From Deltaproteobacteria bacterium (GTDB lineage Bacteria; Bdellovibrionota; UBA2394), in the NCBI GenBank assembly GCA_017302715.1, contig JAFLCD010000002.1:69882-133881 (forward strand): a DNA stretch of 64,000 nucleotides. Reading direction: 5' to 3'. The notes under the pieces are model-generated. The model was given only the letters and a program-made list of their open reading frames with translations. It searched no databases and was not told where the DNA came from. The first letter of the stretch is position 1. Each line of letters opens with the position of its first letter. Below are positions 23,764-42,598 of the stretch, piece by piece. Made by a program: the position numbers and the translations under genes.

Positions 23764-24678
23764 GTGTTCCCTCAAGTTGTTAAAGATCAAGAAGACTATC
23801 GTCAGTCACTTTCATTTTTTGAAAATCTTTTGCGCAAAGATAGCGATTGCCGACTCGAGGCTGAATATCCTTTAGCTTTTAATCCTCAACAGCTCGATCA
23901 TATTTTTGTCATCAATCAAAACGGTGAGCGCCAAGCGGGACTTGTCACTCTTGAACGAGAAATCGAAATTCAACGCGGACAAAAAGCTCGAGCGCTTTTT
24001 ATTGGCAGTGTCGTTACCGAACAGGCGCACCGCAATCGAGGATTGCAACGTCAACTTTTTCACGCGGTTGAAGAAAAAGCAGAGCAGTGGGGAATCGACT
24101 TTTTAGTTTTGTGGAGTAGCCAACTTGAGTTCTATGAGAAGCTTGGATTTCAATTGGCGGGCTTACAAGCGAGTTGGATACCAAGTTTTCAAGCTCCGCT
24201 TAAACCTGCGACCATGGGCGTTCGAGTCGAACCATCCGATCGAATGCAATTTACTGAGAAACATTTTCAGGCTTTTAATAAAAAAATCTGTCGCGTTCAA
24301 AGAACTTTCGAAGAAATGCAGCAACTGTTTCGCATTCCTAAAATGACGGTAGCCTACACAGAAAATGCCTATGCTCTTTTAGGAAAGGGAGAAGACTTTT
24401 TTCAAGTTTGTCATGAATGGGCAGGACCAGCAGATGAAGTTTTGGCCTGTATCGATGCGCTTCGCAGGCTGGTTCCTCAGTTAAGAATTCTAAGTCCTGG
24501 AGTTTTACACGATAAAGATGAAGCTGCTGTCGTTCATGCCTTTGAAACGGCCAATTTTGAAAATAGGCTGGAGTATTTGGGACTTTTTAAAAGTATTTCT
24601 TCTAAAGTTCAAACTAAGGGCTTTGTTCCAGAGGACTTGCAATATCCGTTCTTTATTTGGGGCCTCGATTCAATTTAA
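23764..24678 (+). CDS. GNAT family N-acetyltransferase
   Basis: A 304-residue protein with a GNAT domain in its first half. The acetyl-CoA loop is VTEQAHRNRGLQRQL near residues 84-98 (Q/RxxGx form), followed by FLVLWSSQLEFYEKLGFQLAG typical of the GNAT end. The C-terminal half (about residues 145-304) may be a second, degenerate GNAT-like or acceptor domain. The start is GTG in a GAGGGGGTG context, so somewhat uncertain. Position beside the two Maf genes suggests acetylation of a flagellin sugar precursor; this is inference. Confidence 0.8.
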   Translation: MFPQVVKDQEDYRQSLSFFENLLRKDSDCRLEAEYPLAFNPQQLDHIFVINQNGERQAGLVTLEREIEIQRGQKARALFIGSVVTEQAHRNRGLQRQLFHAVEEKAEQWGIDFLVLWSSQLEFYEKLGFQLAGLQASWIPSFQAPLKPATMGVRVEPSDRMQFTEKHFQAFNKKICRVQRTFEEMQQLFRIPKMTVAYTENAYALLGKGEDFFQVCHEWAGPADEVLACIDALRRLVPQLRILSPGVLHDKDEAAVVHAFETANFENRLEYLGLFKSISSKVQTKGFVPEDLQYPFFIWGLDSI

Positions 24679-24683
24679 ATTCT

Positions 24684-26501
24684 ATGAACGATTTTTTAAA
24701 AAAGAATCTCGAGGTCTTATTAAAACGCTATCCACACTTTCAATCCAAGATCGACGCTGCTCTTAAGAAAAATTTTTCTGCAGAGTTTGATCTCTCTAAA
24801 AAGGGTGAGTTAGTCGAAGAAAAAGTTATCACCGACTCACAAGATCCGAAGTTTTTCTTGGAAGCTTTTGCAAATATAAATCAAAAATTTCCGGCTAGAA
24901 TTTTTATTATTGAAGGGTTTGGTCTGGGAGAAATTTTAAATCAGGCAAAACTTCATAAAGCAAAAGAAACAAAAGAATATTTTATTATCGAACCTTATAT
25001 GGAGAGATTTCTATTTGCCTGCTCACAAAGAGATTTAAGATCTGAAATTCAGGATCCCACTCATCATTGGTTAGTTGGTTGGTCTGCTAAAGAAGCTTAC
25101 TTTGAAATTTTTGAAATCTTTAAAGACTTTGATAGGGCTTCTCGCGCTACGGCGACCTATTTTTTAAAGCACCCCGTCTTGGCCTCTATTTATTCGGACT
25201 ATTTTCAAAAATTTCACGAAGAGTGGGATAAAAACTTTAATACGATTCGTCTTTTTATGGGTTGCCCGGATGATGCTCGACTTGGACTTTCAAATTCGAT
25301 CGTTAATCAATCTTTTGTCGAAGAAAACCCCGGAGTTGATTTGCTCAAAAATTCCTTCAAAGGAATTCCGGCCATCATTGTTTCAACAGGCCCTTCGCTC
25401 AAAAGATCTATAGAAGATTTAAAAAAAGTTCAAAACAAAGCAGTTCTTTTAGCAGCAGATGCGAGCTTAAATGTTTTGCTTAAAAATGGAATTGTTCCTC
25501 ATTTTGTTTTGTCGTTGGAGCGAGAAGGTACGACTCCATTTTTTCAGAATTTAAAATTTCCAAATGCTGCACTTAAGTCTCATCTGGTTGCATTTCCCTT
25601 AGTGCCCCCCGAAACCTTGAAAGCTTACGACGGACCTAAGTGGGTATCTTACCGAGCCTATGATTATTATTCTTACTTCGACGCTTTTTTGCCTAAGGGA
25701 ATGATCAATGCAGTTCATTCTGTTTCTCATATGTGTTTAGGATTTGCTGAGCATCTTGGCTGCTCGGAAGTTACTTTTATAGGGCAAGATCTCTCGTATG
25801 ATCCTGAAACTTTAGCATCTCATCCTGATGGGATCAGCTATTCGGAATGGAGTCTTTCAAAAACCGAATCAGAACTCAAAAAAGAAGCCCACGCTCGAGG
25901 CGAAGAAATGTATTGGCTTCAGGGAAACTTACATGAAAAAGTTCCCACCTCTTCTTATTATCTTCTCTATCTTCAAGAATTTTTGATTATGTTTCGAAAA
26001 TCAAAAATTAAAATCACTAATTCAACAAATGGAGGAGTAAGGCTTGGAGAAACTCCTTGGGTGCCGCTGCTTGAGTTGGCAAAAAAGTGGCCTGAACATT
26101 CGGATTTATTTCAAAGAATCTCTGAGAAAGAGTGGTTGTTTGGAGCGGCAGGTCGCCTTGATTTTACACCTGCTCGAGATGAGCTCTCAAAAATTCATGA
26201 GAAAATTTTAAATGCCTTAGATCTTACGAAGAAAATGAGCTCGGCTCAGAATATTCAACAGTTAATAAAAATAAAAAATGATCTTCTTAAAGAAAGAACA
26301 TTTTATGCATTTGTATTTGTTCAGATGCTGCGCACCATCGTCGGCGTTGAGCAGAAAGCCAGTCTTTTATTTGATGAAGACGAAAGAGTCTTCGACAAAC
26401 GTCAGGAGATTTTGAAAGAATGGTTTGAAGAAGTAGAGAAAGCGACATTTAAAACTTTGAAAATTTTCGAAACACCCATGCAAGGTAAGGCCGCTGTTTG
26501 A
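24684..26501 (+). CDS. Motility accessory factor, MptE-like (Maf-type flagellin glycosyltransferase), copy 1
   Basis: A 605-residue cytoplasmic protein with the DUF115/MptE-like core near residues 225-290: PAIIVSTGPSLKRSIEDLKK, then VLLAADASLNVLLKNGIVPHF and SLER. Maf proteins put nonulosonic acids on flagellin Ser/Thr residues. The C-terminal half is all-helical, with the pattern of the Maf C-terminal domain. The ATG at 24684 directly follows the GNAT gene. It is a clear paralogue of the next gene, with the same length and domain order, so a tandem duplication is likely. Confidence 0.88.
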   Translation: MNDFLKKNLEVLLKRYPHFQSKIDAALKKNFSAEFDLSKKGELVEEKVITDSQDPKFFLEAFANINQKFPARIFIIEGFGLGEILNQAKLHKAKETKEYFIIEPYMERFLFACSQRDLRSEIQDPTHHWLVGWSAKEAYFEIFEIFKDFDRASRATATYFLKHPVLASIYSDYFQKFHEEWDKNFNTIRLFMGCPDDARLGLSNSIVNQSFVEENPGVDLLKNSFKGIPAIIVSTGPSLKRSIEDLKKVQNKAVLLAADASLNVLLKNGIVPHFVLSLEREGTTPFFQNLKFPNAALKSHLVAFPLVPPETLKAYDGPKWVSYRAYDYYSYFDAFLPKGMINAVHSVSHMCLGFAEHLGCSEVTFIGQDLSYDPETLASHPDGISYSEWSLSKTESELKKEAHARGEEMYWLQGNLHEKVPTSSYYLLYLQEFLIMFRKSKIKITNSTNGGVRLGETPWVPLLELAKKWPEHSDLFQRISEKEWLFGAAGRLDFTPARDELSKIHEKILNALDLTKKMSSAQNIQQLIKIKNDLLKERTFYAFVFVQMLRTIVGVEQKASLLFDEDERVFDKRQEILKEWFEEVEKATFKTLKIFETPMQGKAAV

Positions 26502-26523
26502 CGGAGATAATGAGAGGGGAATT

Positions 26524-28359
26524 ATGAATGCAATTTTAGAAAAAAACTTGAAGGCTTTTTTTAAGCGATATCCTCTTTCCAAAAAAAGATTAGAAGAAAA
26601 AATCCAGAAAGCTTCGACGCAAAATTTTTCTATTAAAGACGAATGCGTGTATGAAGGCTCCGTTATGCTTGATTCTTCGGCGGCCGATTTTGTTTCTTTA
26701 AATTCTTATAAGCTGGAACATACGAAACTGCTATTTATTGAAGGTTTAGGACTCGGTCATCTTGTTCGAAAAGCCGTTGACCGCTTTCAAGGCAGAGTTC
26801 GTGATGTGCTGATTTTGGAGCCTTCGATTGAAGCCTTTGCTTTTGTGATTTCTCAGAAAGATTTTTCAGAAAATTTTGCTGACCCTAGATTTCATTGGAT
26901 TATTGGTCAGGATGAAGAGAATTGCTTTGCAGATTTCTTAGAATTTCTTCGAGTGCCCGAGCGTGCTTTTCAGATGGATGCATTTCAATTTATTGCTCAC
27001 CCCGTGATTTCAAAAAAATATCAAAAGTATTTTGAAGTGGTGCGTGATGAATGGGATGCAGCTCGAAAGCAAATCAGACGAGGCTACGGTGGAATTGAAG
27101 ATTCATTGCTGGGATTTGAACACGTGGTGCGTAATTTGGATTTTATCGAAAGCAATCCAGGAATTATTCTAACAAAGGATCTTTTTCAAAAAGTTCCTGC
27201 CATTATTGTTTCTGCAGGACCTTCGCTCGATAAATCTATACCAGCTCTTAAGAAACTTCAGGATAAAGCGGTTATTATTGCAGTCGATGCTTGTCTCAAT
27301 ATTCTTTTAGAAAATGGAATTTCTCCTCATGCGGTGGTCACCATCGAGAGAGATATGGGACCCAAAGTTTTTTTTGAAGCCACTCATAAAAAGTTTCCAG
27401 CAAATGACACTCATCTTTTTGCATTTCCGCTTGCGCGTCCGGATGCGCTGGCGGCATACAAGGGTCCAAAGTGGGTCGCCTATAGAGATTACGGATATTT
27501 TCAGTATTTCGAGCAGCAACTTGCTCGAGGGATGATTTCGTCTTCTTCATCGGTTGCACATTTTGCACTTCGTACGGCTTTTTGTTTTGGATGCTCACCG
27601 GTTTTATTAGTTGGTCAAGACTTAGCTTATGAACCTAAAACTTTAAGATCTCACGCTCAAGGTCTTGCTTATGAAGGATGGGATAAGCCAAAAACCGAAG
27701 CCGAAGTAAAAGCTAATATTCAATCAGACCAACTGGGTGAACTTTTTTATGTCGAAGGAAATAAAGAGAAGCAAGTTCCCACGAACTCCACTTATTTTTC
27801 TTTCTTAAAAGAATTTTCTTGGGAAGCCACTCGATTGCCTTTCAAAATTTTTAATTGTACCGAAGGTGGAGCAAAAATTCCAAATATCGAGTCAGCCTCT
27901 ATCGCGGATGTTACCAGTCAGTGGAAAACACATTCTGATCTTCGTCAGCGCTTATCAGATTTAAGAAAAAAAATTGAATCGAAAAAGCTTTCTTGGAAAG
28001 AAACCACGGATTATCTACAAAGCTTATCTACTAAATTGCAAGAGATGAGCCAAGCCATGGCCTCTCCTGATCTTTCGCTTGAGCAAAAGATGCAGATAGC
28101 AACTTTGATTCGCCAAGCTCAAGTAGAGCTCATGAAAGATCAGCGCTATATCTGCTTCGTCATTCAAAATGCTGGTCGAGAATATTTAGATTTCGAAAAT
28201 GAATGGGCTACACGCGTAGAGGATCCATCCTTTAGTGCGAACGAACGTCTCGCTTATTTAGATCGAGGACTGCATTTGGTGCAGGGCGTTACTCAGCGAA
28301 TGGTAGATCTTTTTCACCAAGTCGATTCATCGCGTCAGAAAATGACAAGCCAAGTCTAA
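26524..28359 (+). CDS. Motility accessory factor, MptE-like (Maf-type flagellin glycosyltransferase), copy 2
   Basis: A 611-residue paralogue of the preceding gene. The DUF115 core is PAIIVSAGPSLDKSIPALKK, then AVIIAVDACLNILLENGISPH and TIERDMG. It shares the middle motif LVGQDLAYEPKTLRSH with copy 1 (FIGQDLSYDPETLASH) and a helical C-terminal domain. A GAGGGG site precedes the ATG. Two copies may glycosylate different sites or use different sugars. No nonulosonate synthesis genes are seen in the window, so the donor must be made elsewhere. Confidence 0.9.
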   Translation: MNAILEKNLKAFFKRYPLSKKRLEEKIQKASTQNFSIKDECVYEGSVMLDSSAADFVSLNSYKLEHTKLLFIEGLGLGHLVRKAVDRFQGRVRDVLILEPSIEAFAFVISQKDFSENFADPRFHWIIGQDEENCFADFLEFLRVPERAFQMDAFQFIAHPVISKKYQKYFEVVRDEWDAARKQIRRGYGGIEDSLLGFEHVVRNLDFIESNPGIILTKDLFQKVPAIIVSAGPSLDKSIPALKKLQDKAVIIAVDACLNILLENGISPHAVVTIERDMGPKVFFEATHKKFPANDTHLFAFPLARPDALAAYKGPKWVAYRDYGYFQYFEQQLARGMISSSSSVAHFALRTAFCFGCSPVLLVGQDLAYEPKTLRSHAQGLAYEGWDKPKTEAEVKANIQSDQLGELFYVEGNKEKQVPTNSTYFSFLKEFSWEATRLPFKIFNCTEGGAKIPNIESASIADVTSQWKTHSDLRQRLSDLRKKIESKKLSWKETTDYLQSLSTKLQEMSQAMASPDLSLEQKMQIATLIRQAQVELMKDQRYICFVIQNAGREYLDFENEWATRVEDPSFSANERLAYLDRGLHLVQGVTQRMVDLFHQVDSSRQKMTSQV

Positions 28360-32613: not shown

Positions 32614-33903
32614 TTAACTCTTCACTGCTTCCGCGTAGGCAAAAATTTTCAAAGTGTCTGCGCGAAGGCTATTTCTCTGTCTCTCTGTTAAATTTTCAAA
32701 AAGTTTTGTCGCATCTTTTGTGCGCTGAGATTGGCAAAGTGCCAAAGCCAAATCATGAATAGCTAAATCACATTTCTTCTCAAGAGATTTCGATAAAAGA
32801 GGAATAGCCTTATCCCACTGAGATTCAGATCTATAAAAACTACCCTCAAGAAATTCGACGAGGCCTGTAGCAGAAAAAATCTCCTCAGCTAGCTTTCGAT
32901 CTTGAGAAAGTCGTTCTACTTGGTGGTGGCGTAAACTCAATTCAAAAATAAAAAGAGAAGCTTGAGAAAAAGAATCTCTAAAATTATCGAGCTGTTTAAT
33001 CATCTGAGGTTGCGTCTGTGCTTTTGCAAGAATCGAGAAAAAATTCGCTCGCATATGAGGCGAATTAAATTTTTCAAGTTCATTCCATTTTGCCTGTTTA
33101 AATAACGAGAGTGCGTAATAAATTTGAAAGTCTTCAACCTCTGGAGCCAGAGTCATGGCTTTAGAAAAATAAGATCGAGCTTCCTCGGGGCGACCTTGTT
33201 TAAGCAAAATCACACCAAGCTCCCATTGAGCCTGAGCATCTTGAGGATTCTCTTCTATTTTTTTTTGACCTAAAATTTCATAAAAAGCATAACGTTCGGA
33301 TTCAAGTTGATGATCTTTTTCTTTTAAGCGACCGAGATGGTGGATCACCGCATTTAAAGATTTTGTTTTTAATTGGTATTGTAAAAGTGAAGGCTCGATG
33401 CGCTCATGCAAGATTCCAGAATATCTAATTTTTAGATCACGTCTAAAGAGTCGATGTAGTTTTGTAGGCACAAAGCCGTATGGAAAATGCTTTGACGAAG
33501 ACGGCTGATACTCAAGCTCACTCGTATCGTAGGTGTAATTTCGAATAGATAGGTCGTAAGCAAAGACCTCTTTTTCTTGAATGGATTTTAAAATGATTTC
33601 GTAATCTTCTGAAGAAATTCTTTCATCGGCATCTAAAAAAAGTATCCAGTCTTGAGAGGCCTGTTCAATTGCAAAGTTTCTTTGGTTTGAAAAATCTCCA
33701 GGCCATTCGCGTTTGATATATTTAAATTGAGTACTTGGATAATTTTTCTGCAAATTAAAGACAATTTTTTCAGATCCATCCTGGCTGCCTGAGTCGATTA
33801 AAATACATTCACTTGCAATAGGTAGAACAGATCGAATCGCCTCTTCTAAATAGAGCGCTTCATTTTTAAAAATCATGCAGAGGCTGAGCGAGCCTTTATC
33901 CAT
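32614..33903 (-). CDS. Family 2 glycosyltransferase with TPR region
   Basis: A 429-residue cytoplasmic protein. The GT2 domain covers about residues 1-200: LSLCMIFKNEALYLEEAI, ILIDSGSQDGS, and the metal site ILFLDADERIS, with NFSNQRNF-like FSNQRNFAIE before it. The C-terminal half is TPR-like (AQWELGVILLKQGRPEEARS). The GT2-TPR arrangement is common for enzymes that glycosylate proteins or lipids. Location next to fliS suggests a flagellin sugar transferase. It converges on fliS and diverges from the NHL gene, with a perfect palindrome between. Confidence 0.88.
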   Translation of the reverse strand: MDKGSLSLCMIFKNEALYLEEAIRSVLPIASECILIDSGSQDGSEKIVFNLQKNYPSTQFKYIKREWPGDFSNQRNFAIEQASQDWILFLDADERISSEDYEIILKSIQEKEVFAYDLSIRNYTYDTSELEYQPSSSKHFPYGFVPTKLHRLFRRDLKIRYSGILHERIEPSLLQYQLKTKSLNAVIHHLGRLKEKDHQLESERYAFYEILGQKKIEENPQDAQAQWELGVILLKQGRPEEARSYFSKAMTLAPEVEDFQIYYALSLFKQAKWNELEKFNSPHMRANFFSILAKAQTQPQMIKQLDNFRDSFSQASLFIFELSLRHHQVERLSQDRKLAEEIFSATGLVEFLEGSFYRSESQWDKAIPLLSKSLEKKCDLAIHDLALALCQSQRTKDATKLFENLTERQRNSLRADTLKIFAYAEAVKS

Positions 33904-33987: not shown

Positions 33988-34962
33988 ATGCAAATTGGTG
34001 TTGCTTCTGGATTTAAGGGCCCGCTGGCGATTCATATCGCTAACGACAAAATTTATATTAGTGAGTGGAGCCAGCATCAGATTGCCATTTGTGATCTTAG
34101 TTTTAAATTTTTAAAGAGCTTTCCTGATCAAAAACTGAAAACTCCACACGGGATTTCGAGTGATTCCGAAGATCGCATCTATGTCACCGAATACGATGGC
34201 AGGGCTATTCACCAATTTTCATCGGACGGAAAACTAATAAAAACTCTCATCACCGCAGAAGCTTTGACTGCGCCATGGCTACTTTCTGGCCCCGTAAAAA
34301 CAGTCGTCGATAAAGAAGGTAATCTCTTGCTCATCGATTTCAATTCTGATTCTCTTCAGAAATTTTCAAAAGATGGAAAATTTCTTGGATGGATCGGTGC
34401 TCACTCACCAGATCGAGTGACCTCAGGATGGTCTCAAGATATTTCAAAAAGGCCGAGTCGTGGATTTATTCCTGGAGCTTTTGATCATCCAAATGCACTT
34501 TGTTTAGATAAGAACGAAAATATCTATGTAGCTGATACTGAAAATAATCGGATTCAAAAGTTTTCGAAGGATGGAAAATTTCTCGGATGGATCGGATCAA
34601 AAAGAGATCAGGGGCATGGTGCCTTTACATCTCGATTTGAAATGACAGGTGAAGCTCAGTCTAGTTTGTTTCCACGCGGATTTTTTTCTCCTATTTGTTT
34701 AGACGTTGAGGCTGATTCATTGATTGTAGGGGAGTTTGGTCATCCACGAATTCAAAAATTTTCTTTAGAAGGAGAATTTCAAGGATGGTTAGGTGGGATT
34801 TCCTGGGATCAATCTGCTGAAAATTGGAAGATGGATGGATTGTCAGCGCCTGGAAATCACAAAGGAATGTTCTTTCATCTTTATGACTTAAGAATTCGAG
34901 GCTCGAAGATTTTTGTAGCCGATACTTATAATTCTCGGGTGCAAGTTTTTGATTTTAGTTAA
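33988..34962 (+). CDS. NHL-repeat beta-propeller protein
   Basis: A 324-residue protein of NHL repeats. Examples are FDHPNALCLDKNENIYVADT followed by NRIQKFSKDGKFLGWIG, repeated with variants (SDSLQKFSKDGKFLGWIG, HPRIQKFSLEGEFQGWLG, NSRVQVFDFS). Six to seven blades are expected. No signal peptide is seen from ATG 33988; the start was placed here because an upstream in-frame region overlaps the palindrome. Binding partner unknown. Its end overlaps the convergent GT2-TPR gene by 8 bases. Its position between two glycosyltransferases suggests a scaffold or sugar-binding role, which is only inference. Confidence 0.85.
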   Translation: MQIGVASGFKGPLAIHIANDKIYISEWSQHQIAICDLSFKFLKSFPDQKLKTPHGISSDSEDRIYVTEYDGRAIHQFSSDGKLIKTLITAEALTAPWLLSGPVKTVVDKEGNLLLIDFNSDSLQKFSKDGKFLGWIGAHSPDRVTSGWSQDISKRPSRGFIPGAFDHPNALCLDKNENIYVADTENNRIQKFSKDGKFLGWIGSKRDQGHGAFTSRFEMTGEAQSSLFPRGFFSPICLDVEADSLIVGEFGHPRIQKFSLEGEFQGWLGGISWDQSAENWKMDGLSAPGNHKGMFFHLYDLRIRGSKIFVADTYNSRVQVFDFS

Positions 34963-36460
34963 CCAATTGTTTCGAAATTTGGACCAAAGCTTGTTTGATA
35001 AACTCATCTTGAGGTTGAGATTTCAAAGCTGTTTCTAAATGTCGGCGAGCCGGTCCCCAAGCTTGACCTTCAAAAAAGAGAATTCCGCAATTGAGATTAG
35101 CTGTAAAATTTCCGGGATCTTTTTTCAAGACATCATTGGCAGCTTCGAGTGCATCGTCAAATTTCTTTTGAAACAAAAGCGCTGTAGTTAAATGAGCCTT
35201 GGCATAGGCATCTTCAGGACTTTTATTTAAAAATCTTCGAATAAAATTTTCGGCAAGGGCGTAGTGTTCCACTCGAAGAGCCGTTTCAAATCCTAAGCGT
35301 AGTAAACTTGAATCTTCAGGGCTTCGCGCCAGTCCTGCTTGAATGACTTCGAGCGCTCGCTGCCAATTTTGGCCGTGCAAAAGTTGAAAAGTAAAATCTA
35401 CCCAACAATCAAAGGCGGAAGAGAAGTTTGTAAATGCATTTTCAAAATAAGAAAGCGACTTCTCAGATCTTTTTAAAATCGCAGCGCAAAGAGCTGCATT
35501 TTTTAAAGTTAAATAATGAGGAGGGAAGTCTTCAATAAGCTTATCAAAAAGCTTCATCGCGTTTTCATTTTGACCACGCTTCATCCAAATCACTCCTAAG
35601 CGAGTCGCAGATTCAGTGTGATTGGCATCGATCGATAAACATTCCATTACAAATTTTTCTGCCTGATCGAGATTTTCAAGTTTAAGGTATGCAGCAGCCA
35701 TATGGTTTAAAACACGAACTTCTTTAGGTTGAAGTTCATTGGCACGTTCAAAAAGTTTAATCGCTTGCTCGGTTCTTCCGCCGGTTAAATATTCAACGCC
35801 TAATTCAAAGTGTGCGTACCAATCATTTGAGTTCATTTTTAATTTTTCCTCTCCTAATTTACTATAAAGCTCTCTCTTGTTTTTGACGGCAGCGACTTCG
35901 GGTAAATACCCATAGTGATGAATAGGAATATCGCTTGCTATTAAATTGTGTTTTACAGAATCCAAAATACTTTCATGAACAATTCCAGTGAATTTCACAT
36001 GAGGTAAGTTTTTAAAAAGTTGAACGCGAGAATGCTCGACATACCCCGGGTAGTCGCGCTCTTCTTGAGGATATTCGCCTTTGCAATTTTGAAAGCCAAT
36101 CGTCTTTGTGCTTCTTACATAATTTCTGCAGTTAAAAGCATAAGCTGCAGCTTGTGGATCTTTTGTAAGTCGCTTGAAATTTTTTAAATCTCTTTCTGAA
36201 ATTCTTTCATCGGGATCGATGACTAAAATCCAGTCTTTCGTAGCTTGTTCCAGACTAAAATTTCTGGCTTTAGAAAAATCATTCATCCATTTAAAAGAAA
36301 ATACTTTTGCGCCAGATGCATTTGCGATTTCTATCGTTCGATCGGTTGATCCAGTGTCTACGACAATGATTTCGTCCGCGATAGATTGAAGATGGAGTAG
36401 GCATTCGCCAATCCAAGCTTCTTCATTCTTTGCAATCATGCAGACGCTGAGTGTAGACAT
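34955..36460 (-). CDS. Family 2 glycosyltransferase with TPR repeats
   Basis: A 501-residue protein. The GT2 domain is near residues 1-210: LSVCMIAKNEEAWIGECL, EIIVVDTGSTDRT, FSKARNFSLEQATKDW and ILVIDPDERIS (metal site in DPDE form). The C-terminal 290 residues are TPR repeats (EQAIKLFERANELQPKEVRV, LDQAEKFVMECLSIDANH, FDDALEAANDVLKKDPGN). It is a homologue of the gene at 32614 with more repeats. It is 11 bases downstream of the lipoprotein gene at 36472 and likely cotranscribed with it. Confidence 0.9.
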   Translation of the reverse strand: MSTLSVCMIAKNEEAWIGECLLHLQSIADEIIVVDTGSTDRTIEIANASGAKVFSFKWMNDFSKARNFSLEQATKDWILVIDPDERISERDLKNFKRLTKDPQAAAYAFNCRNYVRSTKTIGFQNCKGEYPQEERDYPGYVEHSRVQLFKNLPHVKFTGIVHESILDSVKHNLIASDIPIHHYGYLPEVAAVKNKRELYSKLGEEKLKMNSNDWYAHFELGVEYLTGGRTEQAIKLFERANELQPKEVRVLNHMAAAYLKLENLDQAEKFVMECLSIDANHTESATRLGVIWMKRGQNENAMKLFDKLIEDFPPHYLTLKNAALCAAILKRSEKSLSYFENAFTNFSSAFDCWVDFTFQLLHGQNWQRALEVIQAGLARSPEDSSLLRLGFETALRVEHYALAENFIRRFLNKSPEDAYAKAHLTTALLFQKKFDDALEAANDVLKKDPGNFTANLNCGILFFEGQAWGPARRHLETALKSQPQDEFIKQALVQISKQLVN

Positions 36461-36471
36461 CTTCCTCCATC

Positions 36472-37731
36472 TTACCGTTCGTCGGATGATTCACCAAGGC
36501 AGGAATCGTTGTCTGCATCGTCGAAATCTCGCAGGTCACTTTTTTCAAATTCGCGATTTATCGAAATGATTTTGACGCCGCCTGATCCGGTAGCCACATA
36601 CATCATCTTGCCTTGCGCATAGACGTGATTGGTTGACGCATTGTAATCAAATGACATTTTTCCGATTAACTTTGTTTCAACTGGCTCACATTTTTCAGTA
36701 TTGGGTTTTCGTTTTGCCGTATAAACGAAAAGTCCTGATGCACCGTAAGAGGCAACGATAAGACCGCTCGATGCGGCAACTGAATTTACAACGGATTCTA
36801 TACTCAGCCGAGAGAGTTCCTGCAGAAGTGATTCTGTCGCCATGACTTCCTTTGTTCTGTTGCAAACTAAACTGAATCCCGATTCACCCATCGAAACAAG
36901 GGTATAAAGTTCGCTCGCAAGAATGGTGGATTTAGATTGAGCATAACTTGAGCCAAGCAAAGTGTAATACTTGAGCTCATGTAAATTGAAGTCTTCCCAA
37001 TTGATCATGAAAGATTGAACGGTCGTTGGTTGTCCTGAAACAACATAAGCTGTATCGCTGCATCTATCGACGGCAACATCTCGAGCGTCGTAAATATCTC
37101 GTTGTGCGTGAGTAGCAAAAGTCAGCGCATTTAAAACGATCAACCCCGTTTTATCTCCTACAGTAACAAATAATTTTTTATTTTTTACACTGATTCCATT
37201 TCCCGCAAAGCCAGATAGAGAGAGCTCCACCCCATTTTTCGTCAGAAGATGATTATCTAAAAATATTTTCTTAACATAAGCGCCTTCTTTATTTGGTACT
37301 GAGCTTGCGCCAGTGAGGTAAACGGCGTCTGGACCAACATCAATTGCATTTACATCGTGATCTTTGAAGAAAACTTCAGAGGCTAAAACGGGCTTCTTGG
37401 GTTCGGTAATATCAAAAACTTGAATGCCACCCATTTGCTGTTCGCCCTGTCGATTATAAGAAACATACATCCAATTTTCTCTTACAACGATATCGGTCGC
37501 TTGCAGTTGAACTCCATTTAATTTGGGAGCAACAATTTCTGATTGTAAATAGAGTTTAAAATCTGTTGCCATCTGTTCGCCTGTAGCGAGATTGAGAACG
37601 GGAATCGCTTCTTCAGCTGACACTGAGGGGTGATCTTCACGCACTGATTTTGTTTCTGATGCACAGCTAGAAATGAAAAGCGAAGCCAAAGCCAATGATA
37701 AGAGACCCAGCCATCCTTGTGTGTCCTTCAT
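36472..37731 (-). CDS. LVIVD/beta-propeller lipoprotein
   Basis: A 419-residue lipoprotein. The signal peptide ends in lipobox ISSC (Cys about 23). The rest has repeated strand patterns of the LVIVD type: GGIQVFDITEPKKPVLASEV and later GLIVLNALTFATHAQRD and GGVKIISINREFEKSDLRDF. These form a propeller in surface proteins. The C-terminal end is acidic (DDADNDSC). It is the first gene of a minus-strand pair with the GT2-TPR gene. Function unknown. Confidence 0.8.
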   Translation of the reverse strand: MKDTQGWLGLLSLALASLFISSCASETKSVREDHPSVSAEEAIPVLNLATGEQMATDFKLYLQSEIVAPKLNGVQLQATDIVVRENWMYVSYNRQGEQQMGGIQVFDITEPKKPVLASEVFFKDHDVNAIDVGPDAVYLTGASSVPNKEGAYVKKIFLDNHLLTKNGVELSLSGFAGNGISVKNKKLFVTVGDKTGLIVLNALTFATHAQRDIYDARDVAVDRCSDTAYVVSGQPTTVQSFMINWEDFNLHELKYYTLLGSSYAQSKSTILASELYTLVSMGESGFSLVCNRTKEVMATESLLQELSRLSIESVVNSVAASSGLIVASYGASGLFVYTAKRKPNTEKCEPVETKLIGKMSFDYNASTNHVYAQGKMMYVATGSGGVKIISINREFEKSDLRDFDDADNDSCLGESSDER

Positions 37732-37863: not shown

Positions 37864-38625
37864 ATGAAAAATTTATCGATTTGCCTCATGACGTTGGGGG
37901 CTGTGTGTCAAACGTCTTCATTACTCGCATCTTCCGATTTTAAAACTTTAGAATCAGGTGCTGAATATCGTTTTGTTGAAGGTAAGAACGATCAGTACGG
38001 GCATGAAGTTGATTTCCACTTTGACTACCGTTATCACAAAAAGAATTCGTTCGGAGGTCTCTTCTCTCGTCTAAGCCGTACTTATGAGGGCGCTCCCACT
38101 TTGACTGACTTCGTATGGGGAGTTCAGCAAAGCTTTCATTTGTCAGATTCTATCTATTTAGAATCTTCCGCAACTTATGTGAAAGAGCCAAAATTTTCAG
38201 AGAAGTGGTCGGCACAGGCGGCGCCTCATTTTATTTTCTCTGACGGATCCGACGTATCTATCTCTGTTAAGCTGCGACACTATTTTAGTGAAAATACGAC
38301 GGCCGTTCGTGTCTCTTGGAATAAAGAAGTTTTGGATCGATTAATTATAGGAGCTTCTGCCGACTCTGTAGTTCGACCCGTTTTTGTCATTTCTGGCTCG
38401 GGATTTATCGATTGGACTCATTTTGAAAAAATTTCAAATCGATTCGCTATTGCGGGTGGAAAAACTTATGAAGGAGATCGTCTAAGAGATAAATTTTTTC
38501 AAATCAGTAATCGCGTGGGATGGCGGTTCATCCAAAGCGCTATGATTTATATCGACGGAAGTCTTTATCGAGGCGATAGGCGCGATGAAAATAAAATAGG
38601 AACGGGGTTTGAATGTTATTTCTAG
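37864..38625 (+). CDS. YaiO-like outer-membrane beta-barrel protein
   Basis: A 253-residue outer-membrane barrel. The signal peptide is about residues 1-22 (ending LLAS). The mature part has alternating amphipathic strands with aromatic ends (FHFDYRYHKKNS, VDFHFD; SIYLESSATYVKEPKF; WSAQAAPHFIFSDG) and ends with FECYF, an aromatic terminal residue as needed for BAM insertion. The pattern fits the YaiO family, known as a barrel near exopolysaccharide or phage-receptor loci. The stop overlaps the HEAT gene by 13 bases, so the genes are linked. It may be the polymer exit channel. Confidence 0.78.
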   Translation: MKNLSICLMTLGAVCQTSSLLASSDFKTLESGAEYRFVEGKNDQYGHEVDFHFDYRYHKKNSFGGLFSRLSRTYEGAPTLTDFVWGVQQSFHLSDSIYLESSATYVKEPKFSEKWSAQAAPHFIFSDGSDVSISVKLRHYFSENTTAVRVSWNKEVLDRLIIGASADSVVRPVFVISGSGFIDWTHFEKISNRFAIAGGKTYEGDRLRDKFFQISNRVGWRFIQSAMIYIDGSLYRGDRRDENKIGTGFECYF

Positions 38626-39614
38626 GCCCCGATCGCCTTTTACAATTTTTAGGCATTGGAATTCACACTCCTTTGGCTCGAGCTGTAGCGATTTTATTGA
38701 TTGTTAAAATGAGTCTTATTTTATGCCTTCTTTTTTATGTTTGCTTTAAGCGTTTGAAGCGGCAATGGCAGAGAAGAAATAATGAAGGACGTGCTGATGC
38801 TTTTCGGCAGGCGATCGTGGATTATCTTTTTACGGATCCTGAGCGAAATGCTTTTCTTCCTCAATTTAAAAAGAAAGATCGATATTTTTTTAGACGGATT
38901 TTGCTCGATCAACTTGAAAATATCGAAAGTGCTGAGCGGAGCTATCTCGTAAAACTGTATTCGCATTTTCAGTTTCTTTATGAAGATCTACGCGAGCTGA
39001 AATCTTTTTTTTGGTGGAACAGACTCGCGGCTGTGATTCGCTTAGAGATCGTACGAACTCAGGATGCAGTCCCTATGCTCTCTCGGCTTATCGATGATAA
39101 AAATGATTTAGTAGCCATTGCTTCTATGCGCGCTTTAAGCACTCTTGACTATCCAGATAAGATTTCAAAAATTTTGTATTCGCTGAGTCGTCGAGCTCCA
39201 GAGCGCCATGATATTTTTGTAGAAATTTTGACCAATATTGGGCGTGGGCAGTCTGAGAAAATTATCGATTACCTGAATGAGTGTTTTGATCCTTCGATTG
39301 CTGCCATTTGTGTTTCTGTTTTAGGGGCGTTAAAAGCTAAAGAAGCTCTTCCGCTTTGTGTAGGTCTTCTGACCAGTTCTAGCGACGATGTCGCTGCCGA
39401 ATCTGCAAAGGCCCTTGGCAAAATTGGAGATCCTCAAGCTATATTATTTTTACGAAAAGAAATTCATCACGAGTCAGCCAAAGTAAGAGCAGAGGTTGTT
39501 ATTTCTCTATTGAGTTTAGGCGATAGTGATTTTGAATTATCATTAGGCGCTGTACAAAAGGATCCTTCAGTCATTGTAAGGCGCGCACTATTTGATGCGT
39601 CTCAGGAAAAATAA
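38613..39614 (+). CDS. Membrane-anchored HEAT-repeat protein
   Basis: A 333-residue protein. One transmembrane helix is near residues 23-43 (VAILLIVKMSLILCLLFYVC), followed by a basic stretch. The C-terminal 170 residues contain HEAT-type repeats: AVPMLSRLIDDKNDLVAIAS, ALPLCVGLLTSSSDDVAAES and AILFLRKEIHHESAKVRAEV. HEAT proteins are scaffolds; this one would link the glycosyltransferase to other proteins. It overlaps the upstream barrel gene by 13 bases and ends one base before the next start. Confidence 0.85.
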   Translation: MLFLGPDRLLQFLGIGIHTPLARAVAILLIVKMSLILCLLFYVCFKRLKRQWQRRNNEGRADAFRQAIVDYLFTDPERNAFLPQFKKKDRYFFRRILLDQLENIESAERSYLVKLYSHFQFLYEDLRELKSFFWWNRLAAVIRLEIVRTQDAVPMLSRLIDDKNDLVAIASMRALSTLDYPDKISKILYSLSRRAPERHDIFVEILTNIGRGQSEKIIDYLNECFDPSIAAICVSVLGALKAKEALPLCVGLLTSSSDDVAAESAKALGKIGDPQAILFLRKEIHHESAKVRAEVVISLLSLGDSDFELSLGAVQKDPSVIVRRALFDASQEK

Positions 39615-39615
39615 A

Positions 39616-41034
39616 ATGGAGATATCTTCGATAGATTTATCTCAAATCTTTCAAGTGATGACGACATTGTTGACGGCTTATTTTTTATTCGCAAATTTTA
39701 TTTTTCTTTTGCTTCTTGTGGGGGCATTTTTTTCAATTCGAAAATTTATTCGTGCACGTCCGATGGTTGAAAGTCTTTGGAAAAGATTTTCAAGACTTGG
39801 GCCCCCCGTTTCGATTGTTGCACCTGCATTCAATGAAGAAAGCTCTATTGTTGAATCTCTTTATTCTTTTTTGACTCTTAAATATCCACGACTCGAAGTC
39901 ATCTTAGTGAATGATGGATCTACCGATTCTACATTTAAGAAAGTTTTCGATGCGTTTAAGCTAGAGCCCACTCATCTTTTTTATAATGATCAGCTTTCAA
40001 AAACAGAGATCTTAGGAACTTACTCTTCGCCTCTTTATCCTAATTTGTTTGTTATCGACAAAAAGCGTGGTGGAAAAGCTGATTCAATCAATGTTGGGAT
40101 TGGATTTAGTCGATATGATTTTTTCTGCTCGGTGGATTCAGATTCTATTTTAGATCGAGATGCTCTTTTAAAAGTAGTTTTGCCTCTTATCGAAAAACCT
40201 GAGACAACGGTGGCGTCGGGAGGAACTGTCAGACCCGTAAATGGGTCAATCGTTCAAGCAGGAAGAGTTTTTGAAACGAGACTTTCAAAAAATCCTCTTG
40301 TTCTCATTCAAATCGTTGAATATTTACGTGCATTTCTTTTCGGTAGAGTGGGGTGGAATCTCTACAACGGAACGATGATCATTTCGGGTGCTTTTGGAGT
40401 TTTTAAAAAAGAAGCGGTGATGGAAGTCGGCGGTTATCGTGAAGGTTCTCTGGGCGAAGACATGGAACTCATTATGCGACTTCGACAAAATGCAGTTGAT
40501 CATGATCGTGAAGTTTCTATCGCATTTATTTCGGATCCCGTTTGTTGGACCGAAGTTCCCTCTACTTTTAAAACTTTAGCGAAGCAGCGCGATCGATGGC
40601 AAAGAGGTCTGGCAGAAGTTCTGTTTCGTTATAAAAATATTCTTTTTAATCCGCGTTTCGGAACCGTTGGTCTTTTGGCTTATCCCTATTTCTTTTTTGT
40701 GGAGCTCTTTGGTCCATGGCTCGAGCTCTTTTCTTATATTTTTATAGGCTTAGGTTATTGGATGGGATGGATTCAACTCGAACTTGTTTTTCTTTTTCTT
40801 CTGGTGGATTGGTTTTTTGGAATTTTGATGTCTTTTGGCGCTGTGCTCATTGAAGAGAGCGCTTATTATAAGTATCCAAAGGTGAGAGATCTTCTTGTTC
40901 TGCTGATTTTTTCTTTCTTTGAGCAGATAGGATTTCGACAACTCAATTCATTCTGGAGACTTCGGGGCACCATTCGATATCTTCGTGGAGTAAAACATTG
41001 GGGACGAATGGAACGTATGGGATTTCAAGAGTAG
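39616..41034 (+). CDS. Processive family 2 glycosyltransferase (PgaC/BcsA-like)
   Basis: A 472-residue integral membrane enzyme. One helix lies at about residues 15-40; the catalytic part carries IVAPAFNEES, VNDGSTDST, SVDSDS (DxD), GEDMELIMRLRQ and QRDRWQRGL (the QxxRW motif of processive synthases). Three or four helices follow near the C-terminus (PYFFFVELFGPWLELFSYIF; LELVFLFLLVDWFFGILM). Such enzymes make and extrude beta-linked polysaccharides such as poly-GlcNAc or hyaluronan. ATG at 39616 has AGGAA upstream. It follows the HEAT gene directly. The polymer is unknown. Confidence 0.9.
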   Translation: MEISSIDLSQIFQVMTTLLTAYFLFANFIFLLLLVGAFFSIRKFIRARPMVESLWKRFSRLGPPVSIVAPAFNEESSIVESLYSFLTLKYPRLEVILVNDGSTDSTFKKVFDAFKLEPTHLFYNDQLSKTEILGTYSSPLYPNLFVIDKKRGGKADSINVGIGFSRYDFFCSVDSDSILDRDALLKVVLPLIEKPETTVASGGTVRPVNGSIVQAGRVFETRLSKNPLVLIQIVEYLRAFLFGRVGWNLYNGTMIISGAFGVFKKEAVMEVGGYREGSLGEDMELIMRLRQNAVDHDREVSIAFISDPVCWTEVPSTFKTLAKQRDRWQRGLAEVLFRYKNILFNPRFGTVGLLAYPYFFFVELFGPWLELFSYIFIGLGYWMGWIQLELVFLFLLVDWFFGILMSFGAVLIEESAYYKYPKVRDLLVLLIFSFFEQIGFRQLNSFWRLRGTIRYLRGVKHWGRMERMGFQE

Positions 41035-41043
41035 CGACAAAAA

Positions 41044-41075
41044 GTCGTGAGCGACTGTAAAATGTCACTCACGTC
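41044..41075. repeat. Imperfect hairpin after the glycosyltransferase gene
   Basis: GTCGTGAGCGAC (41044-41055) and GTCACTCACGTC (41064-41075) pair in 10 of 12 positions over an 8-base loop. No T-run follows on the plus strand, so intrinsic termination is doubtful. Confidence 0.35.
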
Positions 41076-41180: not shown

Positions 41181-41224
41181 CCACTCAATGGTTTCTGCTT
41201 ATTAATCAATGAGGTTGTGTGGTC

Positions 41225-42598
41225 ATGGGAACAAATTCTCTAGCTTTAGAAAATTCAAAAGGCGCATCTTTTGAATTAGCGAGAATTAAAATTCAAATGG
41301 GCAGTGTCACGCTGATGGGAACCGAAGTTACCCAAAAGGGAATTTTTTGTCTGAGCGCTGTGAATATTTCTCAGCATATTTCTAAATCGGCTTATTTGAA
41401 TTGTACTCCCGATGGTGGAAAATCTATTTCACTTGTCGCAACTATTGTTAATTGCGTTCCAAAAAATCTCTCCTTTTTAGTAGAGCTTCAATTTGACGAA
41501 GCCGCTTTTTATAAATTCTTAAATTTAAAACCTTTAGCACCTGCAGTTGCGGCGACAAAAACTTCTGCTCGCACAACTCGATCAGGGGGAAGAACTTCGA
41601 TTCTAAAACCTGCGTTAAAAACAGTGGCTGCTGCTCCTAAGTCAGAGGCCCTACCAGTAGATCCGGCCAAACTCGAATATTATAAAGTTCCCATCGATGT
41701 GTTTGCCGTTGGCGAGAAAGTAGAGATGGATGTCTACTTTTACTATCAACGTCAATACGTGCTTTTTAAAAGTAAGAACTCAGTTTGGGCGAGCGCCGAT
41801 GATTTAAAATTGGCGAATACGCAGATCGATACTCTCTATGTGCATCTTCCTTCTTCGGCAGAGCATGATAAATTTTTACATTCTCGATTGAAAATGATTT
41901 TAGAGCGCCCCAATATTTCGCTCGAGCGAAAGGGAAAAGTGCTTTACGAAATCGCCGATCCGATTCTTTCAAAAGTCTTTAAGACCCCGAGTTCAGAGGA
42001 ACTTCTTTCGAGTGCCGGAACTTTTGCCAAATCTTGTATTCAATATTTAAATTCGCAAGGCGGTCTGCGAGAGTTATTGAAACTTTCGAGTGAAAATTTA
42101 ACAGAGCATGCACATGCTCTGCATTGTTCAACGTATGCGATCGCACTCGCCAAGGAGCTCGGGCACAAAGATCAAACTCAACTTTTTCACGTGGCCATGG
42201 GCGGATTGCTGCACGATATCGGAAAAAGCAAAATTGATTCTAAGATTATTGAGAAAACAAAAGAACTGACAGAAGAAGAATGGCTTCTGGTTCGTCAGCA
42301 CCCCAATTTTGGTTACGATATCGTGAAAGATCGCAGCGGAGTTCCTGAATTATCTAAAAAAATTATTTTAGAACATCATGAACGCGTAAACGGAAAAGGC
42401 TATCCAAATGGAAGAAAAACTCTCCATGTGTTTTCAAGAGTGACAGCAATCGTCGACGCATTTAACTCGATCACTTCTGAAAGATCCTTCGCCAAATCTA
42501 AGCCGCCTTTCGTCGCACTGAAATATATGCTTGAGACCATGCGCGAAGAACTCGATAAAACAATCCTCGTTAAATTCATTGATATGCTTTCGAAGTAG
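41225..42598 (+). CDS. HD-GYP domain cyclic-di-GMP phosphodiesterase with N-terminal sensory part
   Basis: A 457-residue protein. The N-terminal third has a PilZ-like beta pattern (SVTLMGTEVTQKGIFCLSAV). A linker rich in Thr/Ala/Pro follows (about residues 115-145), then a second domain. The C-terminal HD-GYP domain holds HDIGKSKID, the RQHPNFGYDIV element, HHERVNGKGYPNG (GYP) and IVDAFNSITSERSF. HD-GYP enzymes degrade cyclic-di-GMP. The ATG at 41225 has GAGG 10 bases upstream; a GTG at 41219 is too close. A sigma54-type promoter lies before it, so it may be part of the motility regulon, opposing cyclic-di-GMP-driven polysaccharide synthesis nearby. Confidence 0.87.
   Translation: MGTNSLALENSKGASFELARIKIQMGSVTLMGTEVTQKGIFCLSAVNISQHISKSAYLNCTPDGGKSISLVATIVNCVPKNLSFLVELQFDEAAFYKFLNLKPLAPAVAATKTSARTTRSGGRTSILKPALKTVAAAPKSEALPVDPAKLEYYKVPIDVFAVGEKVEMDVYFYYQRQYVLFKSKNSVWASADDLKLANTQIDTLYVHLPSSAEHDKFLHSRLKMILERPNISLERKGKVLYEIADPILSKVFKTPSSEELLSSAGTFAKSCIQYLNSQGGLRELLKLSSENLTEHAHALHCSTYAIALAKELGHKDQTQLFHVAMGGLLHDIGKSKIDSKIIEKTKELTEEEWLLVRQHPNFGYDIVKDRSGVPELSKKIILEHHERVNGKGYPNGRKTLHVFSRVTAIVDAFNSITSERSFAKSKPPFVALKYMLETMREELDKTILVKFIDMLSK

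Follow-up and report, generated by a model that had tools for sequence, protein, structure and literature searches.

In Escherichia coli the NfrB-NfrA-YbcH system, the N4 glycan receptor, combines a synthase controlled by cyclic di-GMP (c-di-GMP) with an outer-membrane pore (PMC8669469, PMC8669472). The barrel of NfrA consists of 16 strands (PMC8669472). The YaiO-YaiP locus of the same organism encodes a YaiO-family barrel near a gene for a family 2 glycosyltransferase (GT2); the literature that we found on YaiO deals mainly with the detection of E. coli. Here, we describe a locus of related content in 64,000 nucleotides of DNA from Deltaproteobacteria bacterium (Bdellovibrionota; contig JAFLCD010000002.1, positions 69,882 to 133,881). 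This whole stretch is called the window throughout. Three open reading frames (ORFs), all on the + strand, open within 37864-41034 (Table 1). An earlier interpretation made from the DNA letters only (the sequence-only reading) had assigned them to an outer-membrane barrel, a membrane-anchored HEAT-repeat protein and a GT2 of the processive type that bears every catalytic motif. The ORFs, the structural models and the invariant residues agree with this assignment.

We estimate a probability of roughly 0.6 that the window locus is one divergent representative of a synthase-dependent exopolysaccharide module with a wide distribution, composed of a GT2 polymerase and a membrane-anchored cytosolic HEAT partner, with a YaiO barrel as the exit in diderms. 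This estimate draws on gene content, motifs, predicted model folds, the HEAT-GT2 linkage and the REC neighbourhood. The conserved unit is HEAT-GT2 together with a REC or REC-GGDEF regulator, and a YaiO barrel, often with tetratricopeptide repeats (TPRs), is added in diderms. This unit replaces the minimal three-part machine of the sequence-only reading, and the locus is no one-off. The point of interest is the HEAT-GT2 module more than its copy in the window.

The predicted GT2 synthase and its proposed HEAT-repeat partner

The window GT2 protein matched the Pfam family GT2 at 1.1e-18. The residues D108/D112, D182-x-D184, E289-D290 and Q332-x-x-R335-W336 were invariant in an alignment of 10 GT2 relatives and again in one of 32, and the window protein possesses all of the processive-synthase motifs DxD, ED and QxxRW. 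An AlphaFold2 model calculated from 32 sequences showed a predicted local distance difference test (pLDDT) score of 90.9. Foldseek matched this model best to the hyaluronan synthase of Chlorella virus (E 5e-15, 479 columns corresponding to the full length, TMq 0.63), followed by Xenopus hyaluronan synthase, BcsA and chitin synthases. The GT2 sequence profile covered hyaluronan synthase at positions 9-403, which is almost the entire profile. By its predicted model the protein has the fold of the hyaluronan/cellulose type of membrane synthases. Since the motifs are invariant, the model matches hyaluronan synthase first and the profile matches it as well, the protein is best read as a putative processive, chain-extruding synthase.

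In the HEAT protein the HEAT_2 repeats found by Pfam occupy the C-terminal part. Its strongest hydrophobic segment (the helix listed in Table 1) is followed by a stretch rich in Lys/Arg. A membrane helix was predicted within the first 90 residues of 71 of the 73 HEAT family members, and positive charge was located on the HEAT side of the helix in 67 of these 73. By this charge distribution the HEAT domain would face the cytosol, as does the active site of the synthase, and the window protein is accordingly predicted to be membrane-anchored with a cytosolic domain. It matched the HEAT family model, in which the window protein itself was included, at 6.6e-68.

A scan of genome contigs with the single GT2 sequence gave no match. 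The search with a 10-row GT2 profile, using one genome per species, revealed at least 80 loci, carried by Bdellovibrio sp. qaytius, alphaproteobacteria, Gemmatimonadota, Neomarinimicrobiota, Nitrospira, Bacillus and its relatives, Clostridium, Actinomycetota, an archaeal bin and others. The locus counts given below refer to the 72 of the listed loci in which a simple ORF caller recovered the GT2. The HEAT gene was found directly 5' of the GT2 gene in 59 of the 72 loci and nearby in 4 more. Because so many related loci repeat this order, the arrangement goes beyond chance. The window shows it as well, with a family HEAT gene directly upstream of a family GT2 gene; the conserved neighbourhood outside the window genome that the sequence-only reading expected was thus confirmed. 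Its suggestion of a role in prey attachment finds no support and was dropped, since the module occurs widely outside predators (for example in Bacillus, Mesorhizobium, Nitrospira and Gemmatimonadota).

A REC domain was encoded at most five genes away in 54 of the 72 loci. In several of them the gene directly 5' of HEAT encodes a single REC, an Hpt-REC-REC or a REC-GGDEF-REC protein. On plasmid pMESCI01 of Mesorhizobium ciceri (MESCI_RS32000-32015) the NCBI PGAP annotation lists a response regulator, a YaiO barrel, a HEAT repeat protein and a GT2 consecutively, and the order in Bdellovibrio sp. qaytius is YaiO-REC-HEAT-GT2. Further GT2 relatives with about 40-42% identity occur on the haloarchaeal plasmids NZ_CP119560.1, NZ_CP147842.1 and NZ_CP095493.1. 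Within the phylum of the window organism, the distribution of strong GT2 matches was patchy, with 18 of the 97 genomes having one at E 1e-20, and closer homologues were present in fewer genomes. Two genomes of the same bacterial family, G001 and G004, contain HEAT-GT2 with a GT2 identity of 53%.

A YaiO barrel was encoded within three genes in 25 of the 45 loci from diderms, compared to 1 of the 27 from monoderms or archaea (Fisher p=3.5e-6). The sole exception outside the diderms is a Clostridia metagenome-assembled genome whose sequence groups in the tree with one from Elusimicrobia; a binning error or a transfer is possible.

Several loci deviated from the usual composition. Four of them (L041 6646-12778, L042, L043 and L044) combine GT2 relatives with a protein of 820-870 amino acids of unassigned family instead of HEAT, and three of these also have a TPR-YaiO-like protein downstream, which suggests a second flavour of the system. 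In L045 (8130-10285), L047 (8257-10334) and L049 (7427-9528) a YaiO-like barrel gene lies directly 5' of a more distant GT2 gene with no HEAT gene nearby. Locus L040 (10102-13860, - strand) has a HEAT protein of 1252 amino acids directly 5' of GT2, compared to the usual partner of 330-400 amino acids. A conserved secreted-looking family (GNGSSNLLNG..DDWDGSSG) is encoded beside the GT2 genes of L039 (6829-7620), L041 (12819-13634) and L042 (1127-2107), and a gene for a small integral membrane protein is located near these family genes. In many loci of the Bacillus group, such as L116 (11350-14583) and L130 (11356-14634), a protein of ~1060-1090 amino acids without Pfam match is encoded directly 3' of GT2; it could be a glycan-processing enzyme.

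The barrel protein and the layout of the locus

The barrel protein starts with a hydrophobic, signal-like segment (residues 4-22; signal peptide at about residues 1-22) and ends with a C-terminal Phe. The AlphaFold2 model contains 12 strands (pLDDT 76.8, predicted template modelling score 0.73) and is weak around residues 156-176 and 219-237. The underlying alignment consisted of distant YaiO sequences, left out the closest barrel relatives and was poor near the C-terminus, so that the strand count is provisional. The matches of the model in the PDB were OmpG, the oligogalacturonate porin 8xua (KdgM-like) and autotransporter barrels, and a viral structure library returned generic barrels only.

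With the barrel sequence alone, searches of Pfam, NCBIfam and PDB sequences gave nothing useful. The YaiO affinity proposed by the sequence-only reading became apparent through relatives, three of which are encoded in the same bacterial family (G001, G003 and G004). The comparison of the barrel-family profile with the YaiO profile by hhalign resulted in a probability of 90 and an E value of 1.7e-6. In one round, a YaiO hidden Markov model made without the barrel family detected the relatives L057 (1e-9), L035 (3e-7) and L058 (8e-7), and the window barrel at 7e-4 only, in a small database of about a hundred loci. On the curated YaiO model L035 scored merely 13.3 bits. By these profile comparisons, which run through its relatives only, the window barrel is a divergent member of the YaiO family.

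The sequence-only reading had described the three genes as overlapping or abutting. This holds for the barrel and HEAT genes, which overlap by 13 nucleotides, the HEAT ATG at 38613 being located within the final codons of the barrel ORF. For the GT2 gene an in-frame ATG is present directly past the HEAT stop codon (39612-39614), with AGGAAA 6 nucleotides 5' of it, and this ATG is more likely to be the start than the upstream TTG. With this start the HEAT and GT2 genes would abut, and their supposed overlap would fall away.

Table 1. Features of the locus and its surroundings, in window positions.
Feature	Position	Strand	Remarks
Outer-membrane 12-strand beta-barrel, divergent YaiO family	37864..38625	+	253 amino acids; ORF, AlphaFold2 model, porin-like PDB matches, YaiO link via relatives
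HEAT-repeat protein with a single membrane helix near the N-terminus; its HEAT domain is predicted to lie in the cytosol	38613..39614	+	333 amino acids; HEAT_2 E=3.8e-21
Predicted membrane helix of the HEAT protein, residues 25-43	38685..38741	+	hydropathy 2.73
GT2 polysaccharide synthase of the membrane, probably starting at ATG	39616..41034	+	ORF opens with TTG at 39592 (480 amino acids, 39592-41034)
GT2 DxD motif, DSD, residues 182-184	40135..40143	+	D182 and D184 invariant
GT2 ED catalytic motif, residues 289-290	40456..40461	+	invariant
GT2 QxxRW motif, QRDRW, residues 332-336	40585..40599	+	invariant
Stem-loop directly 3' of the GT2 gene, possible unit end	41046..41073		no more than chance in that scan (4 found, 4.0 expected)
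HD-GYP protein, probably separate unit	41219..42598	+	HD_5 8.2e-21; GYP motif visible in translation

The HD-GYP gene had been taken by the sequence-only reading as a sign of c-di-GMP control. It is separated from the GT2 gene by 184 nucleotides containing the stem-loop; no HD-GYP gene was seen adjoining HEAT-GT2 among the family relatives examined, and in G004 a GGDEF gene follows GT2 after 17 nucleotides. Synteny thus gives no support to HD-GYP as a member of the unit, and it was rejected as such. A c-di-GMP link to the window module is plausible on other grounds. In the window genome nine GGDEF matches scored above the cut-off, and 12 PilZ domains were found. The genome also carries one Wza-type export gene, located on a different contig, and so has one further polysaccharide route or more.

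Upstream, a gene for an LVIVD/SBP56-like lipoprotein (36472-37731, - strand) is divergent from the barrel gene. G003 has such a divergent pair too (L141 44-955 and 977-2599), and the barrel may be linked to this lipoprotein as well. Two GT2-TPR fusion genes (32614-33903 and 34955-36460, - strand) adjoin a flagellar cluster, and a GT2-TPR relative is found beside the barrel homologue of G004 (L140 8724-9863). Just 5' of the flagellin gene lie two ORFs in tandem (24657-28359, + strand; 614 and 611 amino acids), which have similar starts and may be flagellin-modification genes.

Proposed function and alternative explanations

Polymerisation, a contact between HEAT and GT2, a regulatory role of HEAT and export through the barrel are what we infer for the module. 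As motifs and fold suggest, the GT2 would polymerise cytosolic nucleotide sugars and thread the chain through its own inner-membrane channel in the manner of hyaluronan and cellulose synthases. To judge by linkage and topology, the HEAT protein beside the catalytic domain would most likely couple REC and/or c-di-GMP input to the synthase. It may gate or assemble the synthase on these signals, and would take the place held elsewhere by PgaD, PilZ or MshEN. Distribution and fold point to the YaiO-family barrel as the probable outer-membrane exit in diderms.

Several observations weigh against this proposal. The loci were chosen by GT2 similarity and are mutually related, hence not independent. 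After correction for the tree the pairing of barrel and diderm showed no contrary pair, with too few pairs for significance. No REC gene is present within five genes of the window HEAT-GT2, REC being a usual but not a universal neighbour. The window barrel, which joins YaiO solely via relatives, is below the curated YaiO cut-offs (PF19413 / TIGR04390), and the Pfam YaiO search of its own genome was empty. Its 12 modelled strands would form a narrower barrel than those of the 16-18-strand class to which the exporters NfrA, PgaA, BcsC and AlgE belong. G004 has its barrel homologue on one contig and HEAT-GT2 on another.

The alternative that survives best, although we consider it unlikely, is that HEAT-GT2 makes, at the inner membrane, a lipid-linked or other envelope glycan which does not cross the outer membrane, with the barrel as an unrelated neighbour. 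The monoderm loci and the archaeal bin with HEAT-GT2 but without barrel fit this idea, as do the separate contigs of G004 and the situation in G003, where the barrel, at a contig end, retains its LVIVD-like lipoprotein neighbour and HEAT-GT2 was not found. On the other hand, the full-length match to hyaluronan and cellulose synthases speaks for an extruded polymer, YaiO barrels lie close to the module in more than half of the diderm loci, and the barrel and HEAT genes of the window overlap.

A poly-N-acetylglucosamine (PNAG; Pga/Ica) system with a replaced accessory set is still less probable. The best NCBIfam model for the window GT2 was indeed PgaC_IcaA (6.6e-34), and in blastp E. coli PgaC (28% over 278 amino acids, 1.5e-33) ranked before YaiP (24% over 246 amino acids) and the marginal NfrB (0.002), so that the NfrA-NfrB kinship favoured by the sequence-only reading was abandoned. 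The score of 117 bits, however, is far from the cut-off of 422, the relatives reach 145-155 bits, and the first structure match is hyaluronan synthase. No PgaB, PgaD or PgaA-like TPR-porin gene was found among the window neighbours by ORF list and Pfam. In the GT2 tree E. coli PgaC stands outside the family on a long branch, which is weakly informative, and NfrB has the longest branch; the branches of YaiP, NfrB and PgaC are too long for placement, and their ranking is by blastp alone.

Glycosylation of flagellin or surface proteins by the module is very improbable: a flagellin gene and two GT2-TPR genes are located 2-10 kb upstream, but the GT2, a membrane synthase of the multi-pass type, has QxxRW and, by model, the hyaluronan-synthase fold, and the relatives retain HEAT and REC neighbours, with no flagellar neighbours seen in the loci examined by name. 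Least probable of all is an NfrBA-type system with a c-di-GMP-controlled GT2 and an outer-membrane NfrA, which shares the logic of synthase, pore and c-di-GMP and whose nfrB overlaps nfrA in E. coli (PMC8669469), since NfrB is so distant in blastp and tree, no C-terminal MshEN-type domain was found in the 480 amino acids, the barrel is without TPR domain and NfrBA-YbcH has no HEAT gene.

For the HEAT-GT2 exopolysaccharide module itself we tentatively propose, at a little below even odds, that the HEAT family is an unrecognised class of synthase partners. These would receive REC phosphorylation and/or c-di-GMP signals and switch a hyaluronan-synthase-like GT2. The class of exopolysaccharide systems so defined would be widespread among diderms and monoderms and reach some archaea, with YaiO barrels as the exit in diderms. 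If true, a broadly distributed synthase-dependent pathway joins those for cellulose, PNAG, alginate, Pel and Nfr, unexplained YaiO barrels receive a working hypothesis, and the unstudied HEAT protein represents a new kind of membrane polymerase regulator. Tractable carriers (Bacillus relatives, Mesorhizobium, Exiguobacterium) allow its study without culturing the window organism.

Comparison with described systems

No description of the combination of HEAT, GT2 and barrel was found in the literature searched, which took in few subscription papers. The view of the sequence-only reading that the system is undescribed agrees with this, and HEAT-GT2 is apparently both widespread and undescribed. 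The window GT2 resembles the Chlorella virus hyaluronan synthase and BcsA in DxD, ED and QxxRW, in its C-terminal membrane helices and in the full-length fold and profile match. It differs in sequence (~15% identity), the PilZ domain of BcsA is not present, and the near-constant HEAT gene neighbour sets its family apart from both.

PgaC/IcaA of the PgaABCD system is the nearest named sequence family, with the same size and layout and the same c-di-GMP theme. In contrast, the window GT2 is far below the family cut-off, and the window has a HEAT partner and a 12-strand barrel without TPR. The E. coli YaiO-YaiP locus contains a putative acyltransferase and a deacetylase instead of HEAT. The Nfr system is the nearest studied parallel in logic, not in sequence. 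NfrB has an MshEN domain, whereas Pfam matched none in the window GT2, and NfrA combines TPR with its 16-strand barrel.

The clusters of M. ciceri pMESCI01 and Bdellovibrio sp. qaytius differ from the window locus in their REC gene, in a barrel from which that of the window is much more divergent, and in the overlap of barrel and HEAT genes seen in the window. They share with it the same HEAT and GT2 families (GT2 identity ~42-50%), the HEAT-GT2 order and a YaiO barrel nearby.

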